Of a stretch of 64,000 nt of DNA, positions 4,346 to 48,506 are shown one piece after another (position 1 is the first letter of the stretch; every line of letters begins with the position of its first letter). The position numbers were made by a program, and so were the translations under genes. This DNA comes from Paramecium sonneborni. Lineage: Eukaryota; Ciliophora; Oligohymenophorea; Peniculida; Parameciidae. The stretch covers positions 262,496-326,495 of the forward strand of contig CAJJDN010000139.1 of NCBI GenBank assembly GCA_905182985.1, in the 5' to 3' direction. The notes under the pieces were generated by a model. The model was not told the DNA's origin. It saw nothing but the letters and a program-made list of their open reading frames with translations, and made no database searches.

Positions 4346-4346
4346 N

Positions 4347-19110: not shown

Positions 19111-19595
19111 ATGAAACGAACAAAGGAAACCATTTTTAGAGAACATCCTGATTGGTAGTAAAGATAAGGTATTAGTGGTCTTAAGGAATTTGATGGGGAA
19201 GATTTATGTAATTTATAATACTTAAAATAAAGAATTTGATTCTCGTAATAAATTTAATAAAGATCAATAAAAATAATGGATATTTGAATAAATAGATGAG
19301 AAGAAAAGAAGGTAGGAATAAGAAAAAGCAGAAGAAATGGCATATGCTTAATAAACATTAGAAATTAATAGATTTAGAGGAATGCTTTAAGATAACTTTG
19401 CATCAAGAAAAACTGATATGGGAGTTGCCACAAAATAAACCAATCTTTAATTAGTAATTATATAATCTATATTGTATTTAGGCTAAAGAAAAGAAAGATA
19501 AAGAAGAAAGAGAAAAATAAGAAAAATTGGCTGCTGAACGGGCTGAAAGAGATTTATTACTTTAACGGGGTCGTAAGTAACCATATTAAGGATGA
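19111..19595 (+). CDS. RIB43A-like ciliary microtubule inner protein, short form
   Basis: ATG 19111 (MKRTKETIFREHPDWQQRQG) continues ISGLKEFDGEDL, the diagnostic RIB43A segment. It then gives FNKDQQKQWIFEQIDEKKRR, EINRFRGMLQDNFASRKTDM and a helical Glu/Lys C-terminus ending ERDLLLQRGRKQPYQG. Two introns are needed, GTAATTTATA...AATAAAG (25 nt) and GTAATTATAT...ATTTAG (28 nt). RIB43A proteins sit inside axonemal doublet microtubules near the protofilament ribbon. The usual family member has over 100 more residues at the N-terminus (NxRRxxEL-type coil). Here nothing of that is seen upstream, so this is either a short paralogue or a 5'-truncated one. Confidence 0.8.
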
Positions 19596-20443
19596 TCATC
19601 ATTTAATATGTTTTATCATCATTAGTTATATTATCAAAATCAGTCAAATACAACAGATTAGTATACACTCTTGTAATCTTACAAACTAATTTTCAATTTT
19701 TTTTATTTCTATCCTTCTATTCTATTTTTATATTATCAAATTATTTAAACTATAATTTTTTATTAAAAGTCTACAGGTATCTTTAATTTAAGTAAATTAT
19801 GCTCATGATCTTTATATTATTCAAATACTTCATATAAATTAATATTTAAATATTCAAGATCAAAAGTATTATATTAATCTTATTCCAATTATTGATGATA
19901 TTTAAAATAGATTAAATATCGTATTTATATTATTCTACTTAACTTTCTATTTATTTAAATATGAATACCTTAAATTAATTTTTGTCTTCTTACATAGTTT
20001 CTAAATGCAATTTTGAAGTATTCTTACTCTTTATTTTCAAATTTAAGTATAAAGTATTCGAAGAATATTACCTTTCTTTTTGGAAGTTTCATATAGACTT
20101 GGTTTTTATGTTTGAAAATTTCATTAACTGAAATAGCATGATTCAAAAATATATCAATTTTATATTTAACAATTATGGCTTCTGAAAATTATGATTAATT
20201 AAAATTTAAGATTACTTTCTTTATTTAATTTTTATGATTTATTAGATGCTCATTATTCTTATGCTAGATGATCATGAGAACTTAAAGAATACTTACCTAC
20301 TTAGTTTATGAATCTAGAACTCAATATTATTTCATCACTGTATTTTTGTATTCTACTGCTAACTGTAAATTTATCTAATACAGTGATTAACATTGATGGC
20401 TTTTCGTTTTTTTATCCTTATCTTTTCCATGTAAAGATTTTTA
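19440..20443. repeat. First copy of a 1,004-bp exact duplication ending at an N gap
   Basis: It starts at ccaatctttaattag inside the RIB43A gene and ends with gtaaagattttta before the N at 20444. The next 1,004 bases are the same. The edges coincide with the N, so this is most simply an unmerged contig overlap. It makes a false second copy of the RIB43A 3' half and of the unknown minus gene. Confidence 0.9.
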
Positions 20444-20444
20444 N

Positions 20445-21448
20445 CCAATCTTTAATTAGTAATTATATAATCTATATTGTATTTAGGCTAAAGAAAAGAA
20501 AGATAAAGAAGAAAGAGAAAAATAAGAAAAATTGGCTGCTGAACGGGCTGAAAGAGATTTATTACTTTAACGGGGTCGTAAGTAACCATATTAAGGATGA
20601 TCATCATTTAATATGTTTTATCATCATTAGTTATATTATCAAAATCAGTCAAATACAACAGATTAGTATACACTCTTGTAATCTTACAAACTAATTTTCA
20701 ATTTTTTTTATTTCTATCCTTCTATTCTATTTTTATATTATCAAATTATTTAAACTATAATTTTTTATTAAAAGTCTACAGGTATCTTTAATTTAAGTAA
20801 ATTATGCTCATGATCTTTATATTATTCAAATACTTCATATAAATTAATATTTAAATATTCAAGATCAAAAGTATTATATTAATCTTATTCCAATTATTGA
20901 TGATATTTAAAATAGATTAAATATCGTATTTATATTATTCTACTTAACTTTCTATTTATTTAAATATGAATACCTTAAATTAATTTTTGTCTTCTTACAT
21001 AGTTTCTAAATGCAATTTTGAAGTATTCTTACTCTTTATTTTCAAATTTAAGTATAAAGTATTCGAAGAATATTACCTTTCTTTTTGGAAGTTTCATATA
21101 GACTTGGTTTTTATGTTTGAAAATTTCATTAACTGAAATAGCATGATTCAAAAATATATCAATTTTATATTTAACAATTATGGCTTCTGAAAATTATGAT
21201 TAATTAAAATTTAAGATTACTTTCTTTATTTAATTTTTATGATTTATTAGATGCTCATTATTCTTATGCTAGATGATCATGAGAACTTAAAGAATACTTA
21301 CCTACTTAGTTTATGAATCTAGAACTCAATATTATTTCATCACTGTATTTTTGTATTCTACTGCTAACTGTAAATTTATCTAATACAGTGATTAACATTG
21401 ATGGCTTTTCGTTTTTTTATCCTTATCTTTTCCATGTAAAGATTTTTA
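20445..21448. repeat. Second copy of the 1,004-bp duplication after the N gap
   Basis: It begins directly after the N and ends where gattttta passes into unique taaagacttagcc. It contains a headless copy of the RIB43A last exon (about 20500-20600). This copy is physically joined to the rest of the minus-strand gene upstream. Confidence 0.9.
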
Positions 21449-24195: not shown

Positions 24196-26385
24196 TCAAC
24201 TTTATTCAACTAATTTTCTAATTTATAAATTTTTTGATTAATTATCCCAGGTCACTAAATATTGAAAATCAGGAGTAATGGATCCTATTATTTCATCAGA
24301 ATAAAAATTAATCAAACCATCAATAATAAATTATTAATCTTGTGTTATTCTAAAAATCACAATTTAGGGTCCATTTTTAAGTAATAAAAGGGACTTTGTA
24401 TTGTTAAATATCTATGGAAAAGATATAATGGATTAGCCACTTTTATTTAATTAAATATCTTTTATTTTAAAAAATTCTTTCTTTCCATTTTGTTTTGTAT
24501 ATAGTTGAAAAATTTTGGAATTGTAAGGTTGAAATGTAAATAGAGTTTCATTTATAAAATGTAAACTTAATCCCCATTAATTAGTTTTAATAATATGAGT
24601 TTTAGTCCAAAATTAAGTATCACTATTATATGTAGCTATTTGAATCATTGTTTCTTCATGTGCACATGAGATCATTTAATTTTCAGAATGATTCAATGAT
24701 AAAGATATTATTTTCTTTTTATGATACTACAAAGTTTAAAACCAATTCCATATATTTTAAACCTTTTTCCAAATAATAATTGTTGTATCTAAACTTCCAG
24801 AAATAATAAACTTTCCAGATTTTGATACTATTAAACAACTTATACATTATGAATGACCTTAAAGTTGTTATTAACATTTCCATTAGAATTAATCATCTTA
24901 TTCCCAAATCACTATTGTTTTATCACTAGATCCAGAAATAAAGGATGAAGATTCGTTTATGAATTATAAACATGTTACTTTATTTGTATGATGATTTAAT
25001 TATTAAATTTGTTATAGATTACCTTTATCAAAGTTAAATACTTTTATTAGTTTATTCTCATATCCAGCTATCATTATATTTCCATAGTAATTAAAAGTTA
25101 TAGTAAAAATATTAACTTCATCAAATGAACTTTCCAATCTTTCATTTATTGAAAATTTCTCTTAAACCTAGAATTTCAAATTATTCTTCATCTATATATT
25201 ATTATTTACTTTTGCAGTTTTCATTATCTGATCACATTTTTCCTAAAAATCTCTGTGAAATAAATCTTTAAATTTAGATCTTTATTCATTAGTCAACTCT
25301 AAGATTATTTCATAAGCCTTTTTAATAAAAGTTTTAGTTTATGACATAGACTAATATCTTTAATCATCAATTTCTTTCTATAAAACTTTTTCAGGTTATT
25401 ATTACCCAAATATGTTTGCAATTTAAATTAACTCTCCCTTTTCCAATTAATACCAATCCTTTTTTATAAGATATTTAGTATTTTTTTATATCCAATTTTA
25501 ATTTTTACTAATCTAATCTATTTTATCAAAGCAACCATCAATTAATTAAATAACTTATTCTTTATAAGATTTCATGAATTCTTTTGTTCTGCTAATTTAC
25601 TAAATAATAAACTTATCATTTTTTTCAATACAATTGTGAATTAACACCTCTTGATTTTCCCAATGTTATTTCAAAGTATCAAGAGATTCATATTTTACAA
25701 AATATTAAGGAACACATTTTCCACATGCTACTCGATTTGGAACTGTTTCTTGATAATTTAAATCTACATAATATATTTTATCTTTATGTTTCTCACATAT
25801 CCATTTACTATCCATCTCAGGTTCATTGTTCAAATTACGTTTAAAGTTAAAGTATTAACATATAGAATCATAAAACTTTGAATTATCATAATCAATCTTA
25901 TTTATTAATTTTTCTAATTACTCTTAAAATTGAGCATATCCCAATTATTTGATATATCCTAATAATTAGGTTTAAATATTATTAAATATAATTGATTCTT
26001 CACAAGTTAATTATTAAAAGGTTGAAAAATCATTATTTAGTGATAAAGTTTCTATTGATTCATCTTTCAAATTTATTATGATTTTCACTTATGTGTCAAT
26101 AAAGAATATTATTTTTCCTAAAATATTTGTAATTTAATCCATTTATTCCTAAAGCTAATTTCTAACTTATTGTAAGACTTATAAATTTTGCGATCTTTTT
26201 GATTCTATTTCCTTTGAAAATTAAGATTTTAATTAATTGAATTACTTTTCTAAATCTTCAATCAGTATTAAATTCTTATTCATATTTACAACGCATTTTT
26301 CACATAGCTTTTACTTTTTTTATTCACCAATAGTTTTTCGATAAAAAACTACTTGTTATTAGTGTTCCTAGCAAATAATACTCAT
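24196..26385 (-). CDS. WD40-repeat protein with N-terminal zinc-binding and coiled-coil region
   Basis: ATG 26385 starts MSIICQEHQQQVVFY, and CQEH with KLCEKCVVN about 20 residues later forms a B-box-like CxxH...CxxC pair. A coiled coil follows (ILIEDLEKQFNQLKSQFSKE). A second Cys/His patch (WICEKHKDKIYYVD, VACGKCVPQYF) precedes the WD40 half: VNIFTITFNYYGNIMIAGYE, SFISGSSDKTIVIWE, GHSQCISCLIVSKSGKFIIS, SLDTTIIIWKK. The protein is about 725 residues, one long frame to TGA 24196. This layout is common among Paramecium WD40 paralogues. The ligand is unknown. It lies just outside the variable 14-kb segment. Confidence 0.82.
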
Positions 26386-28461
26386 ATTATTAAATAATTA
26401 CACTGTTTGATTTTTTAAAATACTATCACTTCTTTATTAAAAATCCCCTAAATAATTATCCTTTTTAAATTATACTCAACAATTATTTTTTATTTAATCG
26501 ATAGATTAAAATTTCTTATTCTGAGAATAAGCAATTACAATCTAAAAGTATTAGGATAAAAAATATAGTATAAAAAAAATTTGAGATTCTTAATTATATA
26601 TTGAAAAATTTAAGGAATTAATTTAGGAATTTTGATGATTTAATTTTAGCTTTCTTCAAAAACTAAAATGAAAAAACATAAATAATATTATTAATAACAA
26701 TATTGATTATTTGAATTCATATATTTAAATAGCAGACTATAAATCAGTATCATCTTCATCACTATTTGAAAACTTTAAATAAATTGAAGAGAATAATTGG
26801 TGATTTAATATCTATTGATGATTATCCTATATATTTTCTCTTCAAATGTATGAAATATGTAATAAAATTATTTTGCCTAAAAAAATTGTTAGTCTTAATT
26901 GAAATTTTACTATAATCTTCTATTTTAATATTGTATATAAATATTAATTCAATTTTAATTATTATGAAATGAATTCATTTAAAAAATATAAAAATTATAA
27001 TTAGTTAAACAAAACTTAAAATTTCATTAGTTTTAGAGACTTTAAATAATTAAAATTGTAAACTTTTTCGAAGATGTGAATAAACTCTTAAAAATTATAT
27101 TGGATGTTATTCACAAACATCAACCTAAATACTGTCAACCTTTTTTAGAAATTTAATTCAATCGATTTATCATAATTGAGTTTTAATTTGCTTTATTCTT
27201 CATAATTTTAAAGTCAAAGGAAATATAATTTTATCCTGACGAGGTATAATTCTAAGTACTAAAAAAATCATCAGATTAATTAATGTTCTAGCTCATAATA
27301 AAAAATGATTTCTTTTTATCACATTTGTGATTAAAAAGGGAAAAATTATCTATGTTAATAGATGATTAATTTAAATTTAGGAACTATTATATAAAATTGA
27401 TTCTGTATATAAATGTGAAAGATTTATCTGTTTTAATTTTATTATTTTTAAAAATTTCATCATCAATTTAAAAAATTTTATATCTTGTTTTTATGTTGTA
27501 TCAGTATATTTTAATAGACTTATAGTATTGATAATTAATAAAGAATCATTCTTGATATTTTTAATATAAATAATGTTTAGAGTTATGATTATAAATTTAA
27601 TTAAAGTATAAAATGTTCTAAGAATTTTCCTGTTGGCTTTGGTCATGATTTATTTCGAAATTAGTTCCATTATTATTATTTTTGCTACCATCATCATATG
27701 ATTTTGATTATCTATCAAGATTTATATACATGTTTATTATTATCAAAATTTTATAATCGATTAGTTTGTTTTTAATTTTATTATATCATCACCTTAATTA
27801 ATTTCTTTAATATTAGTGGTTTCAAAATTTTTTGCAAGGTTATTTTTGAAATAACCATGTCTTTGATATATGTTTGTTATACTTAATACAATAAGGTAAA
27901 ATAAATTTGAAACTAAATAGACATAAACATATTGGAAAATTTTCTGAATTAAACATTTTTTTAAAGAGAGGCAGTATTTAAATGATGTTGAAAGTGAAAA
28001 ATTGCTCAAAAGTATTAGTTTACATTCTTATGCAAAAATCATTTTGCCATTTTGAAAATAAAGAGAGTGAAGTTAATAATTTTTTTGTTTAAAATAAATT
28101 GCAAAAAGATTTCTGAACGATCTTTTTTAAATACCTAATAACATTAATCGAAAACATTTAGATTATTTTAAAAGATTTCATTTTGTGTTAGGTTGAATAA
28201 AACTTGAAAATAAATATTAATAGCAATATAATCTAGGTATTTGGAAAAAAATAAGTAAAAATAGGTTTTTAGATTATTTTAACTATGTAGATTCAAATAA
28301 ATAAATATATCATTAATAAATAGCTGAAAAATCAACATAATTCTTCTTATTTTATTTGAATTAGATTGTTATTAAGGAAGTATAAATTACAATAATTTAT
28401 ATTTATAACTACAAATATTTGTTTTAATTTTTTATTAATTTTTTAAACTAAAAGATTTTTA
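26386..28461. other. Gene-free AT-rich region with the left edge of the variable segment
   Basis: About 2.1 kb without a convincing gene. The 397 bases 26551-26947 reappear exactly at 41354-41750. At 26947 (after atattaa) the two versions part. The rest is A/T-rich with TGA in every frame. The 71-codon standard-code frame at 27794-28009 on the minus strand is not supported by any motif. Confidence 0.6.
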
Positions 28462-31400
28462 ATGTACCAAAACAATGATTTAAATTTTATTCCTCTAAAA
28501 GGGAGTATTAAAACTTCAAACTATTAGCTTCGAGGTGGAGGGTGTGGATAATCCAAATAAAAGGGGAAAAATACAACAGATAATGTATTGCCAGAGAGTG
28601 AAATTCCTCATGATTTTTTGACCAATTTGAATGACAATATTGAAAAAATAATTGATAAGGCTTCAAAAATATTAGATTAAGGATAAAAGGTTGAGGTTCT
28701 AATGGCAATTTAATGGTTTTTTTATAATAGGGAACATTTGAATACTTGTTGTATTTCTAATAAATTAACAACATCTATATGTAATTTGGTACAAAACAAC
28801 TTTGAAAATTTATTAAAAATCCTTCCAGTTTATTTAAGGGCTAATTGGTATCTATGTTATCAAGTTTTATAAATTTGCAATGAATTAGCTCGTATCCTCT
28901 ATTCATTTTAACTAAAAAGTGATAATAGACATTTGAAAGTGGAAAAACAATAAGAATATTTAAATGACCTTGAAGAATTCACAACTTAATTAGAAATTGA
29001 AAAAGCAAATGTTTGGAAATGCGGAATCGAATATGAATTAAATCTAATAAAAATAATGTTAATAAATACGAACACTAATTCATAAGAGGGTCAAGAATTA
29101 TTAATTGATATAGTAAAAAATATTGGTTAATCTATTGTGTCATTGTCTGCAACTGATGATTTGATACCAAGTTTAATGAATGGAGCAAAATTTTTACTAC
29201 TGAAATGCAAAGATAAAATATTGTATCCTTTAGAAATTTATGCAACTTATTATTTATTTTAAACGATTAAATGGTCTATAATAAAACAGTTAAAATCTAA
29301 ATATTCAGTGTATAAATAAATAAAGCAATTAAAAGATACATTTTAAGAACATATATAATCATCAGATAATTGGATTTTACATTCATGTTGGATTATGATG
29401 ATTATAGATATTTTAGCTTATAGACCATTTATTTAGAAAGAACTAATAAATGCAACTCCAAATGAATCATAATATTAGAGATGGAATAAATTAATTGAAG
29501 CAAGATTAATATAATGTGTTTCTTATAATCCAAATGAAGCATAAATTGTTTTATTTGCAAAATAATAAAGAAATTTTGATTAGGAATTAGTAAATTTATT
29601 AGGAGCTCAGGGAAAAATAAAATTTGAATTGTTTTAATAATGTCTTTTAAATGGAGAATTAGCACATAAATTTAATATTTGGGATTTCTATAAGAATTTT
29701 TCATTTTAAAAAAATTAATAAATACAATATAAAGATTATGAAATTCTATTAGCGAATAATGAATTAAATACTTTAGAAAAGTCATTTGAATATTTAAAAT
29801 AATCAAAAGATGAAATATTTGTTTATTAATTATAAATTTAAGAATTATTAACTGATGAGTTTTTATAATTATAACAAACAGAACTTTCAAAGAAATTATA
29901 TTAAGATGAATTGCTAGTACTGAAAAAAAAGTTTATGAATTCATATAAAAAAGCAATTTATTACATTAGAATCATTCAGGAATTCTTTTTTTATGAATAA
30001 TATAAATTAAACTTGCTGGATCCTTACTTCAATATTATAAAAGATGAACCAAAATAATAATTAGTATAGATCTCTCACGAAATTAAAAACACATTCAAAT
30101 CATCTCTTGAAAATTTTTAAGAGTCTTTTTTTAAAGAATACTTTAATGCTATTGAATATGCTAGTTAAATTTCTATGACAAGTCTAAATTTATAATAATA
30201 AGAAAAAGAAAATCTAAAAATGATTTGTTAAAAATTTAATATCTAAACTTTACAGGATTTATTTAAAAATTTTGAAACATAATTTGATTAATTTATAAAA
30301 AATATAAGAAACTTAACAATTAAATTCATCAAATCAATTCCTGAGAAAAATTAAAATAACAATATGATTTAATTTAAAACATATGATATGTTAGATTTTT
30401 TAAAGTAGACTTGTTGTATAGATTGGCTTTAAAAATTTATTGATCAAAATAAGGAGACATTTTTATCAATACCAAAGGATGAGAAAATTGAAACAATATC
30501 AGATGTATTATAAAAGTTGATAAATTTCAAAAGAGAAAGTATGATTGCAAAGAATTTAAAATAAATATTACAAGCCTAATAATATAGATATTTGATCTTT
30601 AAAGAGAAATTTAAATTAAAAGAGACAGCATAAGAATAATAAAATGAATAATTGGATTAATATTTCAAACAAAATTTGATAAATTTGATGAAATAAGAAA
30701 AAGAAAAAATTGAGGAATTAATTAAGGAATCATAGTAAAATTTTGAAATTAAAATTAAAGAGATGCTTAAAATGTTTAAAAATGATTATATGAAAATATA
30801 GAATGACAATTAAAAACTTAATAATGAAATATCTTAGGCTGCTTTAAATTTAATATCAGAAGGATAATTTATTTTTTTAACAATTTAGAATTAAAATTAG
30901 AAAAAAGATAAACTAGTTGAATTAGATAATAAATATAAATAATTTTTTGAAACTAATAATTAAAGTAATAAGGAGCATTCAAATAAAACATTATTCTAAC
31001 AGACACTTTCCAACGAACCAAACAATATATTTTTATGTTGGTTTGATTTTTGTTAAAAAAAGATTAATTCAAATTTAGAAAATATTTAAGATCTTTATTT
31101 TAGTCTTAAATCTTATAAATAAATGATATAACTTGGTTTATTTATGATATTAAATTTACAAGAAAAAAATATAGATTATAATGGGGAAATATCAAATTTA
31201 AAAGAGAGAAGCAATTAAATGATTTTTAATTTTAATAAAAAAGAGGAAAATTATGAGAGTGATTAAAATTTTATAGATGAAAGTGATAAAGAGATTTAAT
31301 TTAATTTGGATAATGTTGTTGGACTTTCAGATATTTAATCAACGAATGAGAATTGTAATACTTAAATAGTAGATTAGATTTATTTAACTATTTTATAGGA

Positions 31401-34400
31401 TCTAGAATAATATTAAATAGAGATAAAAACATCTATATTATAAATTTTTGATTTAAAAACTCCATATAAAGTAAAAGAGTTTTTAGTATTTAATTTAATC
31501 CGACTTTAATAAAGTGTTTAAGAAGATTGTTTTACTTAATTTTCATCCAAATTTCTTTAATATTTATGGATATTTGAAAAAGATTAACGAGTGAGAAGTT
31601 TATTAAAGAATAAGGAATTAATAGAAATGTAAAAATAATTATTTTCTTCTAATTTACAATCTTCATGTGATTAAATTAAATAAGAGATGAAGTAAAGAAT
31701 AAATAATCTTGAAAGTTTGTAATAGGAAATTAGATTAGAAGGAAATTTAACATTAAGAGAATAGCTTTAAAAAAAATTAGAAATGGAATATGAGGAACTT
31801 GATTAATACATAGATAATTTATCAGAAATGTCTTAAAAAATGGAGATGAGTTTGTTGTTTCTTAAAGATATATAAAAAGATGTTAAATAAATAAAGAATT
31901 AGATCGAGAATATATAAAATAGTTTAAATTAAGTTGGGGATGATATTAGAAAGTTGAGAGGTAAGAAATATGATGAATTATTGGAAATAAGAAAATAAAA
32001 GATTCTATAATAATCCAAATTATTGGAGATAGATTCTATTTATGTTTCAGTAAAAACAATAGAATATGATCCAATAAGTGGTAATATAAAAAAAACATAA
32101 GAAGATTAAATTATATCAGAATTATTAAATGATGATAAAGATAATTTTAAAGGAGAAGTAAATGAATTCATTTGGAATTAAAATGAAAATAAAGATGTGA
32201 TGTTACTATCAGGTAATGCTGGATCTGGTAAAAGTAGAGCAGCAAGAAAAATTGAAGAATTTATTTGGAATTTACATGGAAAATAATCAAAATGGATACC
32301 AATTTATGTATCTCTTCCAAATTTAAAAAACCCAAAATATAATTTATTTGAATAAGCTTTAGAAACTGAGAATTATGGATTCGATAAACATTAAATAGTA
32401 GAGTTTAAAGAAGCAATTTAAAATAAATAAGAATATATTTTAATGATATTAGATAGTTATGATGAGATGAAATAGGATTGTATTTAATAAAATCTAATAT
32501 TGACTAATAAACTTATTTAAGATTTAAATATTGTTAAATAAGAAAGATAATTGAAAGTGATCATAACTACAAGAAAAGAGATACTTAATATTGTTGGATA
32601 TTAAACATGGTTCTATGGAGAAAGTCTAGAAAGCTTCAAAGAAGTTTAATTATAAAATTTTGATTAAGATTAAATACAAGAATATTTAAGAAAATATGTT
32701 GAATTAAGTGTAAGGAGAAAAATAAAATAAATTTATGAGTTTGTAAAGTAAGTTTAAAATAATGCTTTTGATCTGAAAGAATTTTAAGAAATTTGGGGTT
32801 TAATTGAGAAATAAGTTAAAATTGCATCAGAAGATAACAATACAGATGAATAGATCTTTAGAAATTAAGATTTAGATAGCTTATTATAGAAAGTTACATC
32901 TCATAAAACTTTAAAATGTTTAAAAGAAGAACATATTATTACTTTAAGAAAAGATTTAGAACCATTATGGAGTGTAAATAAATTTGAAAAAGCAATAAAA
33001 AATGTAGGTATTTTAGATCTTTTAACTACACCATTCATGTTAGAAATAATTGTATAGGTTCTACCAAATATGGCAAAAGAGTAAAAAGGATCAATAGAAA
33101 TTAAAAATTTATTTATTTCAAATTATTTAAAAATAATTAAGAAATAAAAATTAAGAATGATAATTAAAAAAAGAAATTAGAAGAAACTGAAAAAGAAATA
33201 CAGAAATTGAATGAAATTGTTGATTAATTAGATAAGAAAAACTTTTTTTCATCTTATTCAATAACAAGTGTTTTAATTACTTAGAATAATTCAATTTTTG
33301 TAGATAAAACTGAATTTAATTTTGATTTTGATATGGATGAAATTGATTATGTAATTTAAGCATTAAAAATGAAAAAATTAACTATTTTTGATTTTTATGA
33401 AAGTTTCATTAAATTTTATCATTATTAATAAATGTAAAAGTAAAGGGAAAAAGGTTATATACCAAACTATGAAAGTTTTGAGTAAGATATTTTCTAATTT
33501 TCATAATCTTTAGCATTAGATATGAGTATAAGAGATTTATCTTAAGTAAATTATAAATAAAAAGGAAAATTAAATTTAGAGAGTAAATATAATAGTTTTA
33601 AAAACTTTGATGATTGGCCTAATTAATATTTTAGTGATACCTTAGATGATTAGGACTATAAAAAATTAATTAGAAGTTGTATTCTTGTAAGTGCGAAAGG
33701 GAGTACTTATTCATTTAATCATAAATCAATATAAGAATTTTATGTTGCAAAGTATATATTGGAATTACTACTTTTTTTGGATTGGGGAATTTCTCTTGAA
33801 TTCTTGAAAAAAATTGAAGAAGAGAAATAAATATTATTGAAATCTTTATATAATCAAATAAAATTTAATATCTCAAAAGAAAATTATATAGGAATAATAA
33901 ATTTTGTTAAAGATAAATTGTAGAATATGGAAAACACAAATAATATATTAATTAATATAGTGAAACTCTCTACAAATGAGAAATATATATACGCTGCATC
34001 AAATAGTATTTATTTATTGAATTAATTAAATGCTTATTTTGAATCATAGGATTTTAGTAAAATTTAATTATTTGACACTAGTATTTCAGGATTAAGTTTT
34101 TTTAATAGTAATTTAAGCAAATCTAAATTTGATAAAGTTAAAATTGATTCATGTAATTTTAATTGTGCTAATCTTACTGAGGTAATTTGGTAAGACATAA
34201 TTTGTAAAGAAAAACCTTATTTAAAAGGACATGAATCAGAAGTTTAAATTGCAATATTTTCACCAAAAGGTAATTTGATTGCTTCTGGTGGTAAGAATAA
34301 AGAATTAAATCTATGGGATGTAGATAATCCTGAATAAATGGTAAAATTAATAGGTCATACAGATACAATTAATTCTGTTTAATTTACATCTGATAATAGA

Positions 34401-37400
34401 CTAATTTCTTCCAGCAATGATGGTACAATTAAGTTATGGGATATATCTAATCCATAAAATCCATAATTATAAGTAACAATTGAAGATCTCAAAGTTGAAC
34501 AAATTGCACTCTCTTACAATAATAACATGTTGGTATCTAAAAGTCAAGATGGCTTTAAGATATGGAACATGCCGAATCTTAATTTAAATAATGATAATAT
34601 TACAATTAAAGGATTAAAGGATGATCCAAAAATATTCGCATTATCTTAAGATGAATCAAAAATAGCTATTGGTAAAAAAGATTTAACTATTTTAATTATT
34701 AATATAAAGACAAAATAAGAATAAAAACTAATTGGTCATAAAGGAAACATAAGTAAATTAGCATTCAATTATCAAGGAAATAATTTAGCTTCTGCATGTA
34801 CATATTGTAATTTATATATATGGGATTTGTGTTCCTTTAAGTTACTTCAAGTGCTTTTATTTAATTAATTTCAAATTAACCATCTAGCTTTTATTGAAAA
34901 GGATAAATCGATAATTGTCAATAGCAAAACTAACTTAGCTTCAATCCAGTTAGAAAAAGTCGAAAAATCTGAAGAAATTATAATTGATTAATGTTAAATT
35001 GCTTATCTATCATAGTTTAATGACATTTGTCTATTAGGATATTTTAACTACGTTGCAATTCTTGATCTTAATACATTACAAATAATAAATATTATAGATT
35101 GTGAATTTACAGTTGAATCTATATAAATATCAAGTGATTCTTCAAAATTTTCTACAGAAGGTAATAGAAAATTAATAATTTGGAGTTTATAAACATTATA
35201 ATAATTGATTAGTTTAAAAGATTATAACAACTATTTTACTAATGATTATTGTGTATTATCTAAAAATTTTGAGTGTGGTGTTTATCATAATTCTGAAAAA
35301 GCATTTATTTTTAATTTATAAAGAATTCTTTAAGCAAGAGATTTAAAATCAAAACAGTTAGTAGCACACAAATATCTTTCATAAAATAATTGTTTTACAA
35401 TAAATTTCAATAATGAAATTTTAGCTTATCAAATCTAATATAATTAGGTAATTCTTTTTGATATTATTAATGATCAATAATTAGAAATTTTGTAATTAGA
35501 AAACTTCGACTCATTTGAAGGATTTGTTTTTTCTCCTTCAGTTAATATTTTAGCATCAGTACATGGGAGTAAAAAAATTAATTTATGGAATTTAGATAAT
35601 TAACCATATTTAAGTTAAGAATTAGTTGCTTCTTTTTCATAATCTAGTTTGATGGATTTTAAGTATTCTTATGATGGATCATTATTAATTATCTTAGATT
35701 CAAATTCATCTATATATATTTGGAATTCATTTAATGGTGATCTAGTATATACAATAAATGAAAAAAAATATAATATATGGTAAGAGATAACTATATCAAT
35801 AGACAATTAATAGATTGCTTTTATAGATAGAGAATAAAACAAAAAAATAATAGTCTGGAATTTGTAGTTAATGTAGGAAGTAATTCTTTTAAAAGAAGAT
35901 ACTCAAGCTGTAGATATAGTCAAGTACTTTCCTAATAAAATGAGATTAATTTCTTATAGTAATGATGTACAAGTAATTTTATTTTGGAATACAATTGAAA
36001 GAACTGTAGAATATAAAATTAATTGCCAAATTTCATAAGTTTGTTTTTCAAAAAATGGAAATTTAATGGCTTCTGCTTAGAAGGAAATAATTCAGTTATG
36101 GGATTGTTCAAAAGTAGAAATTAAAAAGTTAGGATGTTAAAAAGTAGATTCTTAAATTTTTAGATTGAATTTCATTGGTAAAGATAATAATTTAATTTAT
36201 TAATAAAAATCAAGTATTTTATTTCTTCCTTAATAATTATTAAATTTAGAAATGATAATTGAAATAAATTCAAAATATTAAGATTAATAATTGATTTCAT
36301 TTTCTCAAAATGATTAACTGTTAGCAATTGTTCAATTCTGTCAAATCTAAATATATTTTGTTTAAGAATGGAAATTATATAAAACTTTACCTTAAGATTC
36401 TTAAATTCATTCGATAACATTTTTTTCAGATGGGAATCAATTAATTTCTTCAAATAAACATGGAGTTTTAACCATTTGGGATGTTCATTCTAGCGAACAA
36501 ATGCACACTTTAATGACTTATACATATTAAAGCAAATTATATCTAATGAATAATGATTAAATATTATTATAAGTTGGAGAATAAATTAAAATTTGGAATT
36601 TAGAAAATAAATAAGATATTAAATTATGTGGATTATATTCAAAATAATTTAAATTATTTGAAAATTATTAAGAAGAACAATATTTTAAATAATGTGTCCA
36701 AATTAAATTTGAGGTTTCTCTAAAAAAAGATTATTTTTGCTTTAACTTTGATACATTTAAGTTTATAATTAAATAAATCAAAGAATAAAAAGATATAAAA
36801 TTTTATTAACATTAATGTGATATTAAAAAATTAGAAATATTTGAATAAAAATAATAGTGTTTTATTTGGGATTAGAATAATGATCTAATAATATTAACTT
36901 TTTAAAATGAAAATATATTTTAGAGTTAAATAAAGATCACCACCACCAACGATAATTTAAATATTAGAAATTTAAATGATTTAGCCATTTCTCATGATTA
37001 GAAACTCTTAGCAGTTAAAAACTACGATTCTATTGAAATAATAAAAATTGTAAATTAGGAGAGTAAAATAATTTGTCCTTTACAAAAATAATATTTATAA
37101 TATCATAAAAATCTATTTTTTAATAAAAATGGAGACATGTTAGTTGAAGTGATAAGTTCAGAAGATTTTAATAAGTACAATAGTTATTAATCACAAATAA
37201 TCATTTATAAAATTAATAAAAATTTTGAATAAAAAATAGATTTATTTAGAAAATTTTCTGATATAATTAAATTTGCAAAAATTAATAACAATTTTTTATC
37301 AGTATTATTTGATTCAGGTGATATTTTGATAATAAATTTGATTGAAAGACAATAAAAAACTTATATAAATTTTGATAACATTGGTTAAATTGCAATATCT

Positions 37401-40400
37401 CGAGATGATAAATATATATTTTTTACAAGTGGTAAAAGTTTGTATTAATTTGATATAAGTGAATTGTAATTCTGCGAGAATAAACAATTAGAAGAAATAG
37501 AAAAAATAAATTGTATGACTTTAATAAATAACAATTAAATTTGTGTTGCTGATGATGATTCTATTTAATTAGTTAATTTAAATTAATAATAAAAAAAATA
37601 AATAATAATTGGAAAGACTAAAAAAAGTAATAATTTAGTTTATCATCCTAAATTTAATTTATTAATTTCATGTGGAGAAGACAAAATGATATATTCATGG
37701 AATATCGAAGCAAAGCGAATCATTGGAATATTTGAAGGACACTAAGGAAAGATAAATTCACTTAGTTTTTCTTCAGATGGTTTAACATTTGCTTCTTCTA
37801 GTGAAGATAAATTAATAAAATTATGGAATATTGAAAATAATGATTAATTAGATTTAAAACAAGGACATATAAAAAGTGTAAAATAATTAGCAATATCAAA
37901 AGATAGCTTAATTTTAGCTTCTGGAGGTGGATTTAAGGATTATAATATAATACTATGGGATTTAATAGATATGAAATATCTGATAAGTTTAGAAGGACAT
38001 GAAAGTAATATTAATTGTTTGGATTTTTCGTATTGTTCAAAATGGCTTGCATCTGGAAATGAAGATGGTACAATTATATTTTGGGATGTAAAAAATCCAA
38101 TCTATGCAAAAAAGTTATATGTTATTCAAGAAACATCTTTATCAATTAACTGGATTTAATTTTCACCAAATGGTAAAACACTTGCAACTAAGTCTAAAAA
38201 AAAGCAATCATACGAATCATACCATCAAATTTAATTTTGGAACTTAAATAATATTGGAAAATAAAATATTTAAATTGATACAAATGAAAAATAATTATCT
38301 TGTTTTACTCAAAATGATTAATTCATTATTTAAGGGTTTGAAAAAGATATTTAATTCTATGAATTATCAAGTGATTAGTATTATTTATTGAATGGCCATT
38401 AAACTAATATAATATTAATTGATTGTTCAAATGATAACACTTAAATTGTTTCTATCGACAAATATTTAAATATGTTTATATGGAAATTTAATAATAATGA
38501 TTGGGATAAATAATCAATATCACTTTTTGAACCTGTTGATAAAAAAGTCGTATTTTCTCCAGAAAATAATATAATTGCATCATTCAATTATAACTCAATA
38601 ACTTTAACATAATTAGAGGAACTTAATTAATATGAATAACTTTAATAACATGATTTTGATGTTTAAATTCTAAATATAGGGGAAATTACTACATTTACTT
38701 AATCTTATGACGGCTCTAGATTATTTATATAAAGCAGGGAAGAATATAGATAATAAGAAAAATCGCAATTAATGATATATGAACATGAAAAGAAAAATTA
38801 TTTTTTCATAAAAGATTGGAAATTTGCTAATTAAATAATATTATCAAATGATGGAAAATATTTAGCAGTATGTTTATAATTAAGACAAAAAATCGAAATT
38901 AATATATATATCATATCAGATTAACAGAATTTTAAGTAATTCTCTTTCTATATTCCTGATTCAATTTCTTTATAATTCAAATAAAATGATTCAAACATAT
39001 TATACTTTACATATATAATAGATAATTAACTAATCATTAAGATTCTAAATATTACATAAAATTCTAGTAAAGAAAATTTGTTCTAACATGATTCTGCAAA
39101 CTGGAAAAAGTCCTTTATATCAAATAATGTTAATTAAATTGTAGCAATTACAAAGGATTCAAATTTGCTATTCATTAACAGACAGAATAATAAATAAAAT
39201 AATTCAGACATTTCACTACTTATAGATTTTCAAATTGAATGTCACGCATTTTCAGAGGATGATAAATATTTTATGGTTTCTACTAAAAATAATTCGATAT
39301 ATTTATGGAATATTGATGATTAAAAAATTTGTGATCAATTAGAATGTTTCACTGGTGATAAATAAATCTAATATTTAGCATTTTCTTTAGAAAATCAAAT
39401 AATTTGTTATAAACATCCTTATATATTATTAATTAAAATACAATAGGATTAAAAATTAAAAATAGTTAGGTAGTTTAAAGTTTTTGAAACGATACGATTA
39501 TGTTCTTTTTGTCCTTAAAACTTATAAATTAGTTTAATAAATGATGATTCTACTACATTATGGGTAGCTAATTTGATTGAAAGACAATAAATAATTTTAT
39601 TTGAATCTAAAATGAATGATTTTTGTTTCTCTAATGATTCTAAATACATTGCAGCTATCACTGATTAATATCTAATTTTTTGGGATGCCAATAATTATAA
39701 AGAATTAAAAAGGGATCCAGAATGGTCGGGAATTGTTGTCTAGTTTTTTAGAGACAATTATTTAATTTATTCTAAAGATGCTTATTTCTATATATTAGAT
39801 GTATCAAATCTTAATGAAATTAATCAAGTTTAATGTATTAAAGTGTTTGTTGCTGATTTTACAGTTTAAATATCAATCTCTAAGGATTTGACTTATTTAG
39901 CTTCATTAGGTACATAATATATCAAATTATGGAACATAAAAAATATTTAATAAATTAAACTTGAAAAAATTTATCCAAATAAATTTTATCATGAACAAAA
40001 AGTTTTAATCTCTTAAGATTGCAGGTTCTTGATATTTAATCTTAATAAGAATTTATAATTAATTGATATTTAGGAGGATTGTAAATAATAATAAGCCATT
40101 GATTTTCTTGAAAAAATAGAGGATGAATTTTAATATTCTTCTGATGGTAAGTATTTTGCTATTATTATAAAAGGAAAGCCAAAGTTATATAATTCAGAAA
40201 CTTGTTAATAACTAGAATGTACAATTGATGAAGAATCAGTGTAAAAATTAGCATTTTCTTTATAAAGATCTGTTTTAGCTTTGAGTTGTGAATAAAAAGT
40301 AGTTTGTTTGTAAATTGGGCATGAAAATATTTTAAAGACAAAAATATTGTAAAATTTTAAGAATACTCTATCTGCAATAGCCATATCACCCTTAGGAGAT

Positions 40401-41052
40401 AAATTGATAAGTAGGGAGTAAGATTCAACAATAAGTTTATGGGATATAGAAAATGAATAGCGGTTAAGCTTTATTTCTAATTAGAATGATTTACCAAATG
40501 TATTTGCATATATCCCTAATGGAAATGGATTTGCAAGTGGTATGGAGGATGGTTCCGTTAATTTATATCGATTTATTTTAAAAAATAAAAATTAATCACA
40601 ATAAGAAGATGAAAAATCTGTTTTCTCTTGTTGTAAATCCTTTTCAAGAAATTCTTTAATATTGGCTCATAATTGCATATTAAAAGACTCAAAAATTGAA
40701 TAATCAAAAAAACAAATATTAGGGTTATTTAGATAAAAAGGAGGAATTAATTGATATTAAAATAGCACTTAAAATTATCTTAATCAATATTTTTTTATAA
40801 TTATTCAATCCAATTATTTTTAAAATATCTTTTTATAAGCAATATTTAAGTTATAATAATTCTATTTTTCATTATATTTTTAATTTTTATATTCAAATAT
40901 ATTAGTCTTATTTAATTTTATGCATTTTAATTTAAAAATCAGAAACATTATCAATAATATATATAATATGATAGGTGTAAAAATTTTAATGTTATTTTAG
41001 TAGATTATTATTAAATCAAAATTATAGAAAATTTTCTATTCAAAAAAAGTAA
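26948..41052. other. About 14.1-kb segment absent from an alternative DNA form
   Basis: The contig starting after the N at 41353 reads 26551-26947 and then, without a break, 41053 onward (copy at 41751-42050). It therefore describes a molecule lacking everything between. The join shares TAA (…attaa|ttcaa on the left, …aagtaa|ataat on the right), so the loss is bounded by TA-containing microhomology, as in ciliate internal elimination. The segment is 14,105 bp long and holds one giant STAND gene plus AT-rich flanks. The ends do not match the TAYAG consensus of precise Paramecium IESs well, so imprecise or alternative elimination is more likely. Chimeric assembly is the main alternative. Confidence 0.65.
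28462..40754 (+). CDS. Giant NACHT-type STAND NTPase with pentapeptide-like and WD40 repeats
   Basis: ATG 28462 (MYQNNDLNFIPLKGSIKTSN) opens a frame of about 4,097 codons to TGA 40752. There are no introns; one frame change sits at a run of seven A (33166-33172), where an eighth A would restore it. Residues 1-1240 are helical and coiled (LESLQQEIRLEGNLTLREQL). The NTPase follows: Walker A MLLSGNAGSGKSRAARK at about 1248, Walker B ILMILDSYDEMKQD at about 1325, sensor-like KVIITTRKEIL at about 1365. Then comes the NACHT-associated FNHKSIQEFYVAKYILEL at about 1750. A short pentapeptide-like stretch (SNLSKSKFDKVKIDSCNFNC) precedes about 2,100 residues of WD40 repeats, e.g. GHESEVQIAIFSPKGNLIAS and GHQGKINSLSFSSDGLTFAS. 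STAND proteins are nucleotide-driven switches in immunity or signalling; the WD40 array would be the sensor. The whole gene lies in the variable segment. Confidence 0.88.
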
Positions 41053-41353
41053 ATAATAACATTAATATTATTATTAAAGAGTAAATAATAAAAATGAATA
41101 AGATATATGATGAATAAATTAATAAATTAAAATTAAAAAAAAATTGATTTTTGGATAAAAAATATTTGGAATAATTAAATAATTATATTAAATAATAGAG
41201 AATGGAAGTCTTTCTTTATCGAAAATAAACTTATACTTTATGAATGAGTATCAAATCTCTAACGAAAATTAGAAGGTAGAACAGAATGATTATGAAGATT
41301 GTTATGAGGTTAAATAGAATTTAACATCACTTTTTTGAAAGAAAACATTAAAN

Positions 41354-42050
41354 TTAGGATAAAAAATATAGTATAAAAAAAATTTGAGATTCTTAATTAT
41401 ATATTGAAAAATTTAAGGAATTAATTTAGGAATTTTGATGATTTAATTTTAGCTTTCTTCAAAAACTAAAATGAAAAAACATAAATAATATTATTAATAA
41501 CAATATTGATTATTTGAATTCATATATTTAAATAGCAGACTATAAATCAGTATCATCTTCATCACTATTTGAAAACTTTAAATAAATTGAAGAGAATAAT
41601 TGGTGATTTAATATCTATTGATGATTATCCTATATATTTTCTCTTCAAATGTATGAAATATGTAATAAAATTATTTTGCCTAAAAAAATTGTTAGTCTTA
41701 ATTGAAATTTTACTATAATCTTCTATTTTAATATTGTATATAAATATTAAATAATAACATTAATATTATTATTAAAGAGTAAATAATAAAAATGAATAAG
41801 ATATATGATGAATAAATTAATAAATTAAAATTAAAAAAAAATTGATTTTTGGATAAAAAATATTTGGAATAATTAAATAATTATATTAAATAATAGAGAA
41901 TGGAAGTCTTTCTTTATCGAAAATAAACTTATACTTTATGAATGAGTATCAAATCTCTAACGAAAATTAGAAGGTAGAACAGAATGATTATGAAGATTGT
42001 TATGAGGTTAAATAGAATTTAACATCACTTTTTTGAAAGAAAACATTAAA
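41354..42050. repeat. Junction copy: 26551-26947 fused to 41053-41352
   Basis: Bases 41354-41750 copy 26551-26947 and bases 41751-42050 copy 41053-41352. After that, unique sequence (acttttgcaag) continues. The right half is the ordinary contig overlap across the N. The left half is sequence that in the main assembly lies 14 kb upstream. This is the evidence for the alternative form without the STAND gene. Confidence 0.88.
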
Positions 42051-42539
42051 ACTTTTGCAAGATATATTAAATTAAAGATTAAATAAAAATACTCTTTAAC
42101 CAAAATTTTAGGTGATCTAATACAAAAGCTTTTTTATGAGTCTTTTTCACTTTTGATGCTAAGAGAATTAATTATTTGATTAATCCATGATTAAACTATT
42201 ATTTTTGTATATACAAGGATTAAAATCACCATAACGCTAAATCATTTTAATTAATTTTTTATATAATAATTATGAAACTTCAAAAGTAATTTATTTTAAT
42301 TTCTTTTCTTCTGAATCAATCTCAATAATCTTAGTTCTATCACATTTAGATAGCATATAATTGTTGATTAATGGAAAGATTTATAAAGAATTCATTTTCT
42401 ATTAAATCATTAATAAAAACTTTAAAAAAAAATAATTGAAATTAAGATTATTATTATTAATAAGTACATTATATACATCATATTGAAAGGCTGATTACAA
42501 TTATATGCATAGCATCTAACAAATATTAAAGAAAAATCT

Positions 42540-42840
42540 TTTGAGTGTGTTAAGATGTTCATAGGATGGATGTAATCCTTGTATTAAATAACTTATGGAA
42601 AAAATAAAAATTAGAATGAATAGAAGAATTTACTTATTTTTTATGAGATAGGTCAGTTAATAATTTAGAGATGCTTAATTCTTAATTTCAGAAAGAAATA
42701 ATCATCTGGATGGTATCTAATACAATAAAAAGTATAATGAATTTCCTTAATCAGCTTAAAATCTTTTTTTAATTAATAATTTCCTTAGAAGATTTTCCAC
42801 TTCTTAATTTTTTCTAAAGCATTAGATTTGAAATACTCTA
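42540..42840 (+). pseudogene. Open fragment with CxxC...CxxC pattern in the decayed field
   Basis: The frame reading CLRCSQDGCNPCIKQLMEK stays open for about 100 codons (KIRMNRRIYLFFMRQVSQQF, QYNKKYNEFPQSAQ) to a TGA. It has no start codon near the cysteine cluster and no matching neighbour frame. It is probably the remnant of a larger gene. Confidence 0.3.
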
Positions 42841-45800
42841 AAATATTAACTGAATCAATATGAATTTCTCATCATATTATTCAATATTTCTTTCCTTTGT
42901 TTTTACCTAATAAACTTTTCTATTTCATTTACTTTTATTAAAATATAGCCATTCAAATCAAAATATATGGAAATATTTTATATTCATTCTAACTTTTTAA
43001 TCTCACTTTAATTCTCTTAATAAGATTTCCTATTATCTTTTACTATTTCAACTATATGTAAATATCAATTTAAATATATTTTTTACTAATTCTTACTTTC
43101 ATATTTAAAATATTATTCAGAAACAACAATATCAACCTTAATATAGATAATTAATCAAGTGTTGAAAAAATTTAATCTTGATTGAATTATTTTAGTTTAA
43201 AGAATCTTTAATTCTCTCTTCTATAAATCTAACGCTAATGTTATTTTAAGAAGTATTTAACTTTATATAGAAATCTTCTGAAATTTTTGAACTAATAATT
43301 TTTTATTATTATTAATTTGATATTCCTTAGATTAGTTTTCAAGCTTGTAATTAAAAAATAATAAGAGGAATATCTTAATGATAGCTATATTTTTTATTAT
43401 ATCTTTTATTAGTTTATTTAATTTTATTTACTGATATAGATATTAAATATTATTATAATTTTTTGTTCGAAAGCTTTGATTTTAGTTATGTAATTGTTTG
43501 AATTTATCAAATTTACATAACAAAATAATATTTATCTATTTTTAACTAAAGATGATTAACATTAAGAATACTAAGAGCATCTAAAACAACATTATATTGA
43601 ATAAAAGAAAATAGTACATAAGGGGTTTCTGAAAAAGTTCTTTGTAAAGTGTTGTAAGAATGTATAAAGAGATTTTGTTCAAATAAGGAATATGACAAGA
43701 ATTTGTTATTTTTTTTTGGAAACAAAGAGAACTTGAGCTCTTTTTAAATTATACATAATTTTAAAACTTAATTTTTGTCTAACTAATCTGTAATTTTGGA
43801 TCTTTAGAATTTAATAATATTTTAATATCTTTTTAATTAGATTAAAATTCATTAAATTCTAAAAAAATTTTTGGGATTGTATGATTAAATTGATTTGAAT
43901 ATTAAGTGATATAGTATATTCTTTATAGAATAATAAGACTAAGATTATTAAGTATTATTATTGATTACTATACTTTAGAAATTGTTTAATAGATCTCATT
44001 ACAAAGGATAAATTATGACCTTTTAAATTAAGTTTTATAATAAGAGTGTATTTTAAAATGATACTAATTAAAAAGCTAAAATATTTTGCATAAAAGAAGA
44101 AACTTTTCCTTAAAAAATCAAGATTCTAAACATTTAGATGTTAAAACTAATTTATAGGAATTTAAGTATCTTTATTGCCAATTTTTATTATTTTAGGCAG
44201 ATAAAAAATTTTTTTTAAAGATATAATATCCATATTTTATCAGTTATGAAAACAATATTTAGCTGATGTAGGTTTATTTTTAAGAGTAAAAAGGAAAAAA
44301 TTGTTTACAATTAATGTTAGATTATTGTATTATTGAACAGATAATAATCTAAAAATTAACACTTAAAATTATTTCTTAGTTACTTTTAAAAAACTTTAGT
44401 CTTTATGCAAGGATTATTTATGTTAAAATGTTTAAATAAACATAAAATTTATTAAAACAGCCAAGATAAATTATAGTTTTAAAACTAATTAATTTTTTTT
44501 AAATTAAAAATAATACTAATCAAAAATATATATTCATTAAATTCTTGTTCTTATAAATATATTCTATTAATTTTTTTTAAATTGTAAATTAATTTTGAAA
44601 TAGAATAAATTATTCAATATAGAATTAATTAAAATAAGTAAAATAATATTCAAATCCATTTTATCTTAACAAAAGCATAAAGAACATACTTTTTTTTTGG
44701 ATATCTCTTTAAAAAATTCTAATTTAAATAGAATATATTCAAAAGAATTTGAATAAAATATGAAAACCATTTCAAATTAAGGTTTAATTTTAATTCATTT
44801 TTAATATATTACAATTGATATTAAAAAAACTAGTGACTGTTCTTCTATTTCAAGTTGTCTTCTTTTTTTATTTATATAATTAAAAATATACTTATACCAA
44901 AAGAATTCAATTCTTAAGTAATTTAAATGAAATAGTTTAAATTTTGGCAAGTTCAAATCTGAAGCGCATTTAATACCTGATTAAATTCAAAAAAAATAAA
45001 TAAAATTAGTTTTATAGATTCACATCAATAATAATCAATTTGAAATTTTAAATTTATTCTATACTATTTAGCTTATTAAAGATTTGAATAATTTAATAGT
45101 TAAATTTAAAATATCTTTAAAATAATTCAATCTCTCAAACAAAAACTTTCAAGAAATAGATATTATAACAGATTAATATGAAATTTTAGTTTGAATTTTA
45201 TTTTTCAATCATATAGATAATAAATAGAAATTTAGATGATATTATACTATCAAAGATAAATTTTGTAATATATGATATAAAATTAACTGAAAAAAATAAA
45301 TATAAGTGCGAATTTAGAATTCTTATTAATTTTTTATTAAATATGATATCTTTAATAATATTATCCTTGAATTAAGATAATTTAATGAATATTAAAAAGA
45401 AGTTGATGAAAAATCTCATTTCTTTTAATTTAAATTATCGAGTTTTTTTAAGTAATTCAATATTTCGCCAAGATAAAAACTTTCAATATATCAGAATTTT
45501 AGATTTATCCCTATAAAAACTTATAAGTGGAAATTAATAGACTTTAAATAAGGCCATTTTAGATTAATAAGATTTAGCGATGATGACAAATCGATTTTCT
45601 TAGATGAATAAGTTCAATAGTATTTGTTTTAGATTAGAAAAACAGCATATAAGAGCCTAAAAAAAAGAAATAAAAATAATTAATTTAATAAAACTTTTAT
45701 AATAAAAAATTGGTCAATTTATAAAGATTCATAAACTAAATTGTAAATATTCAAACCATACTTATTTTTGACAATTTAATAAAAAATTTTATCTCTTAAC

Positions 45801-46959
45801 ATGATAATACTAGAATATTATTATGATAAGTCATGCTATCAATCGTTTTCTATTTATATATTAAAAACTTAAGTTTTAATGAATGAATAAAAATGAAATC
45901 TCTTTCTCCAATTTTATTCAATATATATACTAAAATAAAATATATTCATATGAATTAAATTTTCTCGAATAATAATTTCTGTAATAAAAAGTAAAAGTCT
46001 TTAAGTTATATGTTTTATTTTATCACCGAAATTTCAAAAATTTATTAAGATAATATTAGTAAATAAAAACTAAAATTTTTCCTTATTAAAAACTTAAAAG
46101 AAAAAACAAATATAATCTTTACTTGTGCATTATCATTTGAACATATAGTTATTGTGATAAAATGGTCAAAATATTAATGATAAAAATCGATATTTTCTAA
46201 GATAATTTACCTATTAAAAAACACATTATTATCTTAAATCAATTAATCGATTAAATTTTTTTTCAATAAAATATTGGATAGTTGAAAATCTTTAATGAGA
46301 ACAAAGTGTTTTTTAAGAAAAAGTATAAGAGGATAATTAAAGAAAATGGATGAATTCTCTTTACATAATTATTTTAATTTATTATAATGAATCTTAATTT
46401 TTATAAATAATTATTTTTTTTATTTGATATCCAATTAGAACTTTGACAATAATATACATTTTGCATCAGAATTAAAAACTTTTCATTCTTAAAGAAAAAT
46501 TTCTATCGCAAGATGTGCTGAGCAATAAATAATTTTATAAAGAAAAGAAATATAAGTCAATCTTTTATTATATCCCATAATTTTAATCAGGATAATTAAA
46601 TTTATTAAAAATTTCACAAAATAAAGATTAACCTAAAATTTAATTTGATAGAACTTATTAAAAATTCAATATTTAATATTCACTAGATAAGAGTTTTATT
46701 TTTAGTTCAATTTGAATAAGTAGTATTTGAAGAGAAAATAAAATTTTTAAAGATCTTAAACAATATTATTATTCATAATAATTTATCAATAATAATAATA
46801 ATCAATTATATATATATATATAAATAATAAATAGAGAAAAAAATAAAAAGAAAAAGCCTAAATTATCAAATTATCAAAGTTAATATCTTTCAAATAATTA
46901 AAAAAAGATAATAATAATTTTGTTGATTAAAATAATAAGAAATAATAATAATTATAATT

Positions 46960-48506
46960 TCAATAATTATCATATTCTTCTTAATATTATCTGGATCCTT
47001 TCTTTGATATTATTACCCATACAGTAAAACCAATCATAAAAGCTATTCCAAAAATAACAAGAGCTCTTTTTGGATGAAATCTAAGCCAAGCTAAAGCTAT
47101 TGTAATTAAAGTTAATGGTATAGATATCATAGCACTAACAAGAGCAAATAAAAATGTAGACAATTCAGCCATAAAACGACCCAAAAATGGAAACCATGAA
47201 ATGACATAAACAATTGGCGAAAAGAAAAACATTAAGCCAAAAAACTAAAAAATTATAAAATTATAAATACCATCAATAGAAAACCTAAGAATCTAATAGC
47301 CAATGTTAATTTGCGTGATTCTTTGAGTTTATGATCAAATACTTCATGAATTGTTAAGATCTTTTCTAAAAACCAATCAATATATTTAATAGGTTCTAAC
47401 AAATGTTTAAGTTACTTTTTAATTCCATTTTCATCAGCTTTATCTTTTAATATTTAAGATAAATCTTCACCAACATATATAGAATGATCACTATCTTTAT
47501 GATCATAATCATTAAGCAATTAATTATTTTTTACATATAATGAGTATGGTTCAAAAGAATTCCCTTTTTATTGAGAAACAACTGTGGCATCTCCACACTT
47601 AATCATTTAAAAACGAATTCTTTGATCACCAACTGTAAAATTGCCATCTATCTTATTAAAATAAATGTAATCATCTTATATTTTACTAGATTTGATAATT
47701 AATATATGTATTACATATGTTCTTAAGTTCTTTATGGAAATGATTATTAACAAATACTAACAAATTCTTATTTTGGTGTAATAACTTTAAAATCTTTAGC
47801 TTATTTCAATTAAAATTTAGTAAGCTTATAAGCACCTAAATAAGCTTCTTTAGCATATTTAGTTTTTTTCTTAATAGTCCAATCTTTATCATCATTTTCA
47901 AAATTTTCATAACTTTCTTAAGGAATTGCAGACCATTCTGTTACAAAAAATACTTTGATTTTTTTATCTTTACCCACTCCTTCTGTTTCTTCTTTTCTAA
48001 TCCATTAATATGTTTCGACTCTTCGTTTTAGAACCAAACAATTATCAACCTCAATTCCAAATCGTTTATCTTTTAAAATATTTTCAGTTTTTGTTTAACC
48101 ATTTATATGAATTAATCTTTTTTCTAAATTAGGATTTACTTCTAAACAATTAGTAGATGTACATTCTTTTTCTGCTCTTTCTAAATTGATTTCATTTTCA
48201 GCAGCTCTTTATTAATTATCCATTAATACTTGTATTCATTTAACCATAATATAGGAAACGATATAAAGAATAATATTATTCCAGCTAAGAATTCAACTAA
48301 TGGACTAACTTCTGATTCTCCAGCATATACTTTATTTTTACCATTTGAAGATGATGTTGATGGTTTTGTAGATGATGCTATATTTTAAAATTCAATTTAA
48401 TACATCCACTGGTTCCACTTTTTGTTCCACTTGATTTCTTGCAATCAACAATCTAAAATAACAATAATGCTATGAACAAACTTATCAAGAATCTTTGACT
48501 TATCAT
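46960..48506 (-). CDS. TMEM43: TMEM43/LUMA family membrane protein
   Basis: ATG 48506 gives a signal-like helix (MISQRFLISLFIALLLFQIV) and, after a 26-nt intron, SEVSPLVEFLAGIILFFISF followed by PILWLNEYKAAENE, the N-terminal membrane helix and first loop of TMEM43. A long lumenal region follows (CTSTNCLEVNPN; FFVTEWSAIPQESYENF), then IKYIDWFLEKILTI near the end. Three C-terminal helices follow, with the family signature SPIVYVISWFPFLGRF and ALAWLRFHPKRALVI. Four introns of 23-29 nt are inferred. It ends at TGA 46960 (tail KKGSRQYQEEYDNY). TMEM43 resides in the ER and inner nuclear membrane and organises membrane protein complexes; here by homology. Confidence 0.92.

Follow-up and report, generated by a model that had tools for sequence, protein, structure and literature searches.

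Introduction

Is an internal stretch of a macronuclear chromosome carried by all copies of that chromosome, or can it be kept in some and lost from others? The question is raised by a locus of Paramecium sonneborni in the last 64 kb of the 326,495-b contig CAJJDN010000139.1 (C139; assembly GCA_905182985.1, 91.5 Mb, 289 contigs; b, bases). In this stretch, here called the window (64,000 b, numbered from its first letter), a 14,105-b segment at 26948-41052, most of it filled by an immune-receptor-like gene with NACHT and WD40 domains, is retained in one assembled contig and skipped in the next. On balance, we favour the reading that the segment is an internal stretch of a macronuclear chromosome that is incompletely and imprecisely eliminated.

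Two forms of the locus

The junction comprises the following features:

26551-26947, forward strand: left flank, an exact copy of which also stands at the start of the next contig (match to 41354-41750)
26945-26947, forward strand: TAA, left copy of a 3-b microhomology (exact matching)
26948-41052, forward strand: 14,105-b segment, present in one contig and skipped in the next (contig comparison)
41050-41052, forward strand: TAA, right copy of the microhomology (exact matching)
41053-41352, forward strand: right flank, first copy, at the end of the left contig (41050-41352 identical to 41748-42050)
41353-41353, no strand: single N between two contigs (9 of 10 single-N joins are uninterrupted duplicated contig ends)
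41354-41750, forward strand: left flank repeated where the right contig begins, skipped form (exact match)
41751-42050, forward strand: right flank, second copy, fused directly to the left flank (exact match)

The 397 b at 41354-41750 are an exact copy of 26551-26947, and the 303 b at 41748-42050, which include the TAA, are an exact copy of 41050-41352, both with no mismatch. In the contig left of the N, the left flank is followed by the 14,105-b segment and then by 300 b of right flank, whereas in the contig on its right the left flank is fused directly to the right flank and 26948-41052 is absent. The original prediction that the sequence after the N at 41353 repeats 26551-26947 and runs on into 41053 onward was thereby confirmed (397 b and 300 b exact). 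Because the TAA at 26945-26947 and 41050-41052 is common to both matches, the endpoints can shift by up to 3 b. One pair of boundaries of the skip was seen; an assembly could hardly display more.

A genome search with 26500-27000 returned these two places only, with no third copy, and a search with 41000-42100 returned the known copies together with three weak A+T-rich matches (74-75% over about 100 b); as the search passes over very common words, these results are no proof of absence. No third copy explains the junction. The eliminated form thus stands beside the retained form in the contigs, and at contig level only. It is certain that two forms of the locus exist in the assembly and likely that they exist in the DNA itself. 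Reads across the join of 26947 to 41053 probably existed, and the working nucleus probably contains a mixture of retained and skipped forms.

Assembly behaviour at single-N joins

The two other Ns of the window, at 4346 and 20444, each lie between perfect copies (1083 and 1004 b), so that this assembly habitually duplicates sequence at an N. In the 264 kb of C139 covered there are nine gaps, namely seven single Ns, one 320-b gap with a 720-b duplicate and one 1215-b gap with no duplicate. Six of the seven single Ns are placed between perfect duplicates of 1004-1223 b, one of them offset by 1 base; the seventh is that at 41353. A single N in 30 kb of a second contig, C205, has a duplicate of 1090 b, and single Ns in C34 and C282, two contigs chosen because repeated match scores hinted at duplication, have duplicates of 1186 and 1126 b. 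Copies are therefore uninterrupted at 7 of 8 unselected joins and at 9 of 10 overall (1004-1223 b), the skip being found only at 41353. As the nine other joins are uninterrupted, the skip is not a habit of the assembler.

The summed length of duplicate and N is 1005-1224 in 11 other gaps (mean 1115, standard deviation 74) versus 698 at 41353, as though both contigs had halted short of a fork. SSPACE writes a negative gap as a single n, and gaps can be overfilled by GapCloser. Contigs that overlap are described for other assemblers in PMC5368935. In our reading, the size of the gaps at the single-N joins was overestimated by about 1.1 kb and filling proceeded from either side; at 41353 we read the leftward growth of the right contig as having passed through the fork into the left flank. 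Duplicated contig ends account for the N, not for the skip.

The present assembly is probably, as we infer, that of PMC8354472, where Newbler contigs, SSPACE scaffolds and GapCloser are given as the pipeline, with reads of 2 x 250 b fused at an overlap of at least 15 b and a Newbler overlap of at least 99 b. If this pipeline applies, a fused read measures at most 485 b, whereas 397 + 99 = 496 b would be needed for the tip; a single chimeric read would then be insufficient, and the skip would have been crossed by at least two reads. The ten perfect overlaps total 10,719 b with 0 mismatches, as would be expected of a homozygous line more than of a heterozygous deletion.

The perfect duplicates at 3263-5429 and 19440-21448 of the window are unmerged contig ends, which can double gene pieces in annotation. 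The same duplication doubles a NACHT match in C34:643001-647000 and gene-family matches in C282:4501-8000, and counts of the NACHT-WD40 family in the assembly are inflated accordingly.

Source of the DNA

Telomere repeats of a mixed CCCCAA/CCCAAA type are found at 5 of 20 contig starts, while 11 of the 20 read N and 4 hold other sequence. Long open frames require the ciliate code (code 6). The protein encoded at 62304-63665 of the window matches a P. sonneborni protein with 100% identity over its first 56 residues and 95% over 389 positions for the other 372; the residual difference probably reflects an unspliced intron. A G+C content of 22% had brought Tetrahymena into consideration, a source that was dropped in view of the telomere repeats and the P. 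sonneborni match. The Rfam model of telomerase RNA gave no hit, nor did it in the 14 controls, so that this negative carries no weight. Pairs of GTA and TAG show a small excess at spacings of 25-28 b, a weak signal since lengths of 34, 37 and 72 score equally high.

Segment ends

Both segment ends score 5 of 8 on TAYAGYNR, the end consensus of Paramecium internal eliminated sequences (IESs), and this is the commonest background score of TAs in the region. The TAA places a TA at both ends, one of which is kept in the skipped form, at a chance expectation of 7.4%: in 200,000 random junctions, a TA-containing microhomology occurred in 7.4% and a microhomology of at least 3 b in 12.0%. More than 90% of P. 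tetraurelia IESs are reported to be shorter than 150 b (PMC3464196). The join resembles that of a precise IES in lying at a TA-containing direct repeat and departs from it in the length of the segment (14.1 kb) and in ends that match the consensus at background level, so that a precise IES is not supported by the sequence. The TA-bounded excision that had been offered as evidence for elimination thus loses its force.

A mobile element with a TAA target duplication was considered and dropped; inspection by eye, with no tool run, revealed no terminal inverted repeat, and homology to the paralogue in C205 spans 28188-40848, which corresponds to the gene and not to the segment ends.

The NACHT-WD40 gene and its surroundings

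Two features describe the gene:

28462-40754, forward strand: giant gene with NACHT and WD40 repeats, code 6, frame broken near 33153-33204 (open reading frames, Pfam)
33153-33204, forward strand: linker with frame change, about 110 b shorter than in the C205 paralogue (paralogue comparison)

Its open reading frames extend over 28360-33210 and 32988-40754, with the first ATG at 28462 and the stop at 40754. Read as two frames, the gene gives Pfam matches above cut-off to NACHT (2.7e-14) and WD40 (2.9e-69); a NACHT NTPase is followed by WD40 repeats, as in STAND/NLR-like architectures. Along with the gene, the skip deletes 1.5 kb ahead of the start and 0.3 kb beyond the stop. The gene does not form a single open frame, and the earlier description of it as complete could not be upheld: the frame changes at about 33153-33204, where the C205 paralogue is open, and a paralogue in contig C93 also shifts frame nearby. 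We take the gene to be a probable pseudogene, the alternative explanations of the frame change being an assembly indel or a missed intron. Four related proteins were found, in P. primaurelia, P. sonneborni, P. pentaurelia and Halteria. Among the titles and abstract beginnings of the matches listed in a literature search on Paramecium NACHT genes, none dealt with this gene family in Paramecium.

The distance from the segment to the scaffold end is 22.9 kb, and the segment has genes on both sides. The nearest on the left is:

24199-26385, reverse strand: neighbouring WD40-repeat gene, untouched by the skip (window protein P0005, 100% over 26385-24205)

The start of this gene lies about 560 b from the junction. 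In 8-kb bins, coding-like density is 0.68 and 0.90 in the two bins mostly filled by the segment; it is 0.25-0.45 in those to the right, 0.33-0.75 along the body of the contig and 0.31 in the first bin of the window. The profile is noisy, and part of the training of the score came from the gene in the segment. Directly to the right of the segment, 42001-46000 is very low in G+C (0.19 and 0.17 in two 2-kb bins), and 40754-47603 holds no coding-like frame of 120 or more amino acids.

The gene family across the assembly

At least 29 further loci in the assembly match 26948-36900 of the segment, and for 18 of these the nearest contig end is no more than 25 kb away; the query covered 9,953 of the 14,105 b and 38 of 122 candidates were scored, so that 29 is a lower bound. 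On contigs longer than 150 kb, 14 of 24 loci lie within 25 kb of an end against 3.2 expected, and none of 100,000 random draws gave a value as high, the enrichment having been computed with no control gene family. This placement is reminiscent of the subtelomeric surface-antigen genes treated in PMC9788069. A scan of the assembly for the NACHT family returned 18 matches, the window's own copy not among them. About 10 kb before the C205 paralogue, a 3.2-kb array (C205:53108-56305) is built from some 24 tandem units, each about 130 b long, which are about 72-76% alike in self-comparison.

Origin of the two forms

Under the favoured explanation, the segment would be removed from some chromosome copies and left in others during macronuclear development. 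By analogy with P. tetraurelia, cleavage would be carried out by a PiggyMac-type machinery followed by end joining, and the cut ends may have been joined via the TAA microhomology. The coexistence of both forms in one clone, the loss during development and the enzymes involved are inferred; the basis at contig level consists of the two junction types, the one skip among ten single-N joins and the gene content. Of the alternative elimination put forward in the original prediction, the macronuclear Paramecium DNA and the two contig-level forms stood, whereas the TA-bounded excision and the complete gene did not.

Several points weigh against this explanation. The segment lies near the scaffold end but is internal, whereas published variable regions were called at scaffold extremities, and ordinary genes (TMEM43, AAA/Vps4-like) lie beyond it. 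Its coding-like density is not reduced, as measured by the partly self-trained score, and there is no TA or IES-end signal beyond background. The mismatch-free overlaps may merely reflect that both copies were built from the same reads. The identity with the assembly of PMC8354472 is no more than probable, and the 82-83 Mb of constitutive plus 10-16 Mb of variable sequence agree inexactly with 91.5 Mb. An assembly can reveal a skip only where a contig breaks off, and so the proximity of the N to the junction stems from selection and carries no evidential weight.

A distinctly less probable account takes the segment as ordinary macronucleus-destined DNA, lost from some copies by off-target or vegetative deletion and end-joined via the TAA with no targeting programme. 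Chance-level microhomology and segment ends suit this account, as does the segment's coding-like density, which is no lower than that of the contig body; a rare form would, however, not be expected to supply a contig end. We consider it unlikely that a presence/absence polymorphism of the germline is involved, the culture being heterozygous or a mixture of clones with one haplotype that lacks the segment. A heritable micronuclear deletion of a chromosome end (28.5 kb, 18 genes) is described for P. tetraurelia in PMC6679132, and with a broken frame the loss of the gene may cost little, but the duplicated contig ends are free of mismatches, and autogamy gives wholly homozygous progeny in P. tetraurelia (PMC6679132), a point that counts here if the sequenced P. 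sonneborni DNA was post-autogamous.

Improbable as well is a library or assembly artefact, in which chimeric molecules or the wrong extension of a contig end made the join. The join does lie next to an N at the tip of a contig, N joins being artefacts in their own right in this assembly, and microhomology of its length is found in 12.0% of random pairs; yet both sides are local with order and orientation unchanged, none of the nine other single-N joins holds a chimera, and one fused read is too short if the PMC8354472 pipeline was used. PCR copies of one chimera could nonetheless have produced it. We give hardly any credence to a literally correct scaffold, with a 700-b fusion of left and right flank standing as a partial tandem duplicate next to the complete locus. 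This is the scaffold's own statement if the N is a real gap, but duplicated contig ends occur at all nine other single-N joins and the copies at 41353 are identical.

Comparison with known systems

Macronucleus (MAC)-variable regions are expected to hold more noncoding sequence than the chromosome body. Noncoding density is plotted in PMC8354472, according to which such regions amount to 10 to 16 Mb in each of four initial assemblies (P. octaurelia, P. pentaurelia, P. primaurelia and P. sonneborni), are kept in a small fraction of macronuclear copies and were called by low depth at scaffold extremities. The segment resembles them in species, kilobase scale, probable incomplete elimination and probable retention in part of the macronuclear copies. 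It differs in its internal position between two flanks, in its single defined rejoining and in being known from contigs instead of depth. Calling confined to scaffold extremities, as in that work, would overlook internal regions of this kind.

In P. tetraurelia, regions that contain transposons or cellular genes are reported to be eliminated imprecisely in a PiggyMac-dependent manner (PMC3464196). Imprecise elimination as described there and in PMC7702705 likewise affects large regions, with ends rejoined or telomere-capped and cellular genes possible, whereas variable boundaries are the rule there and a single junction is seen here. The sc1-locus deletions of P. tetraurelia are comparable in that genes are lost near a chromosome end on a scale of 17 to 28.5 kb, and differ in being terminal and also present in the micronucleus (PMC6679132), whereas the segment is internal. 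For P. bursaria, 31 of 102 internal structural variation regions are reported with two haplotypes, which in the authors' view may have arisen by rearranging a single locus in different ways; this is another, highly heterozygous species, and the evidence there consists of redundant contigs (PMC7702705).

Implications

A skip at an N join is a simple mark with which to search existing assemblies for internal alternative eliminations, with no new sequencing. The single-N joins also carry a warning, as they duplicate about 1 kb here and can inflate gene counts. For the gene family, it is a speculative thought, to which we attach little confidence, that P. sonneborni may routinely keep or drop whole NACHT-WD40 members in part of its working chromosomes; if this were true, each clone would have a mosaic, possibly maternally inherited, repertoire of NLR-like receptors.

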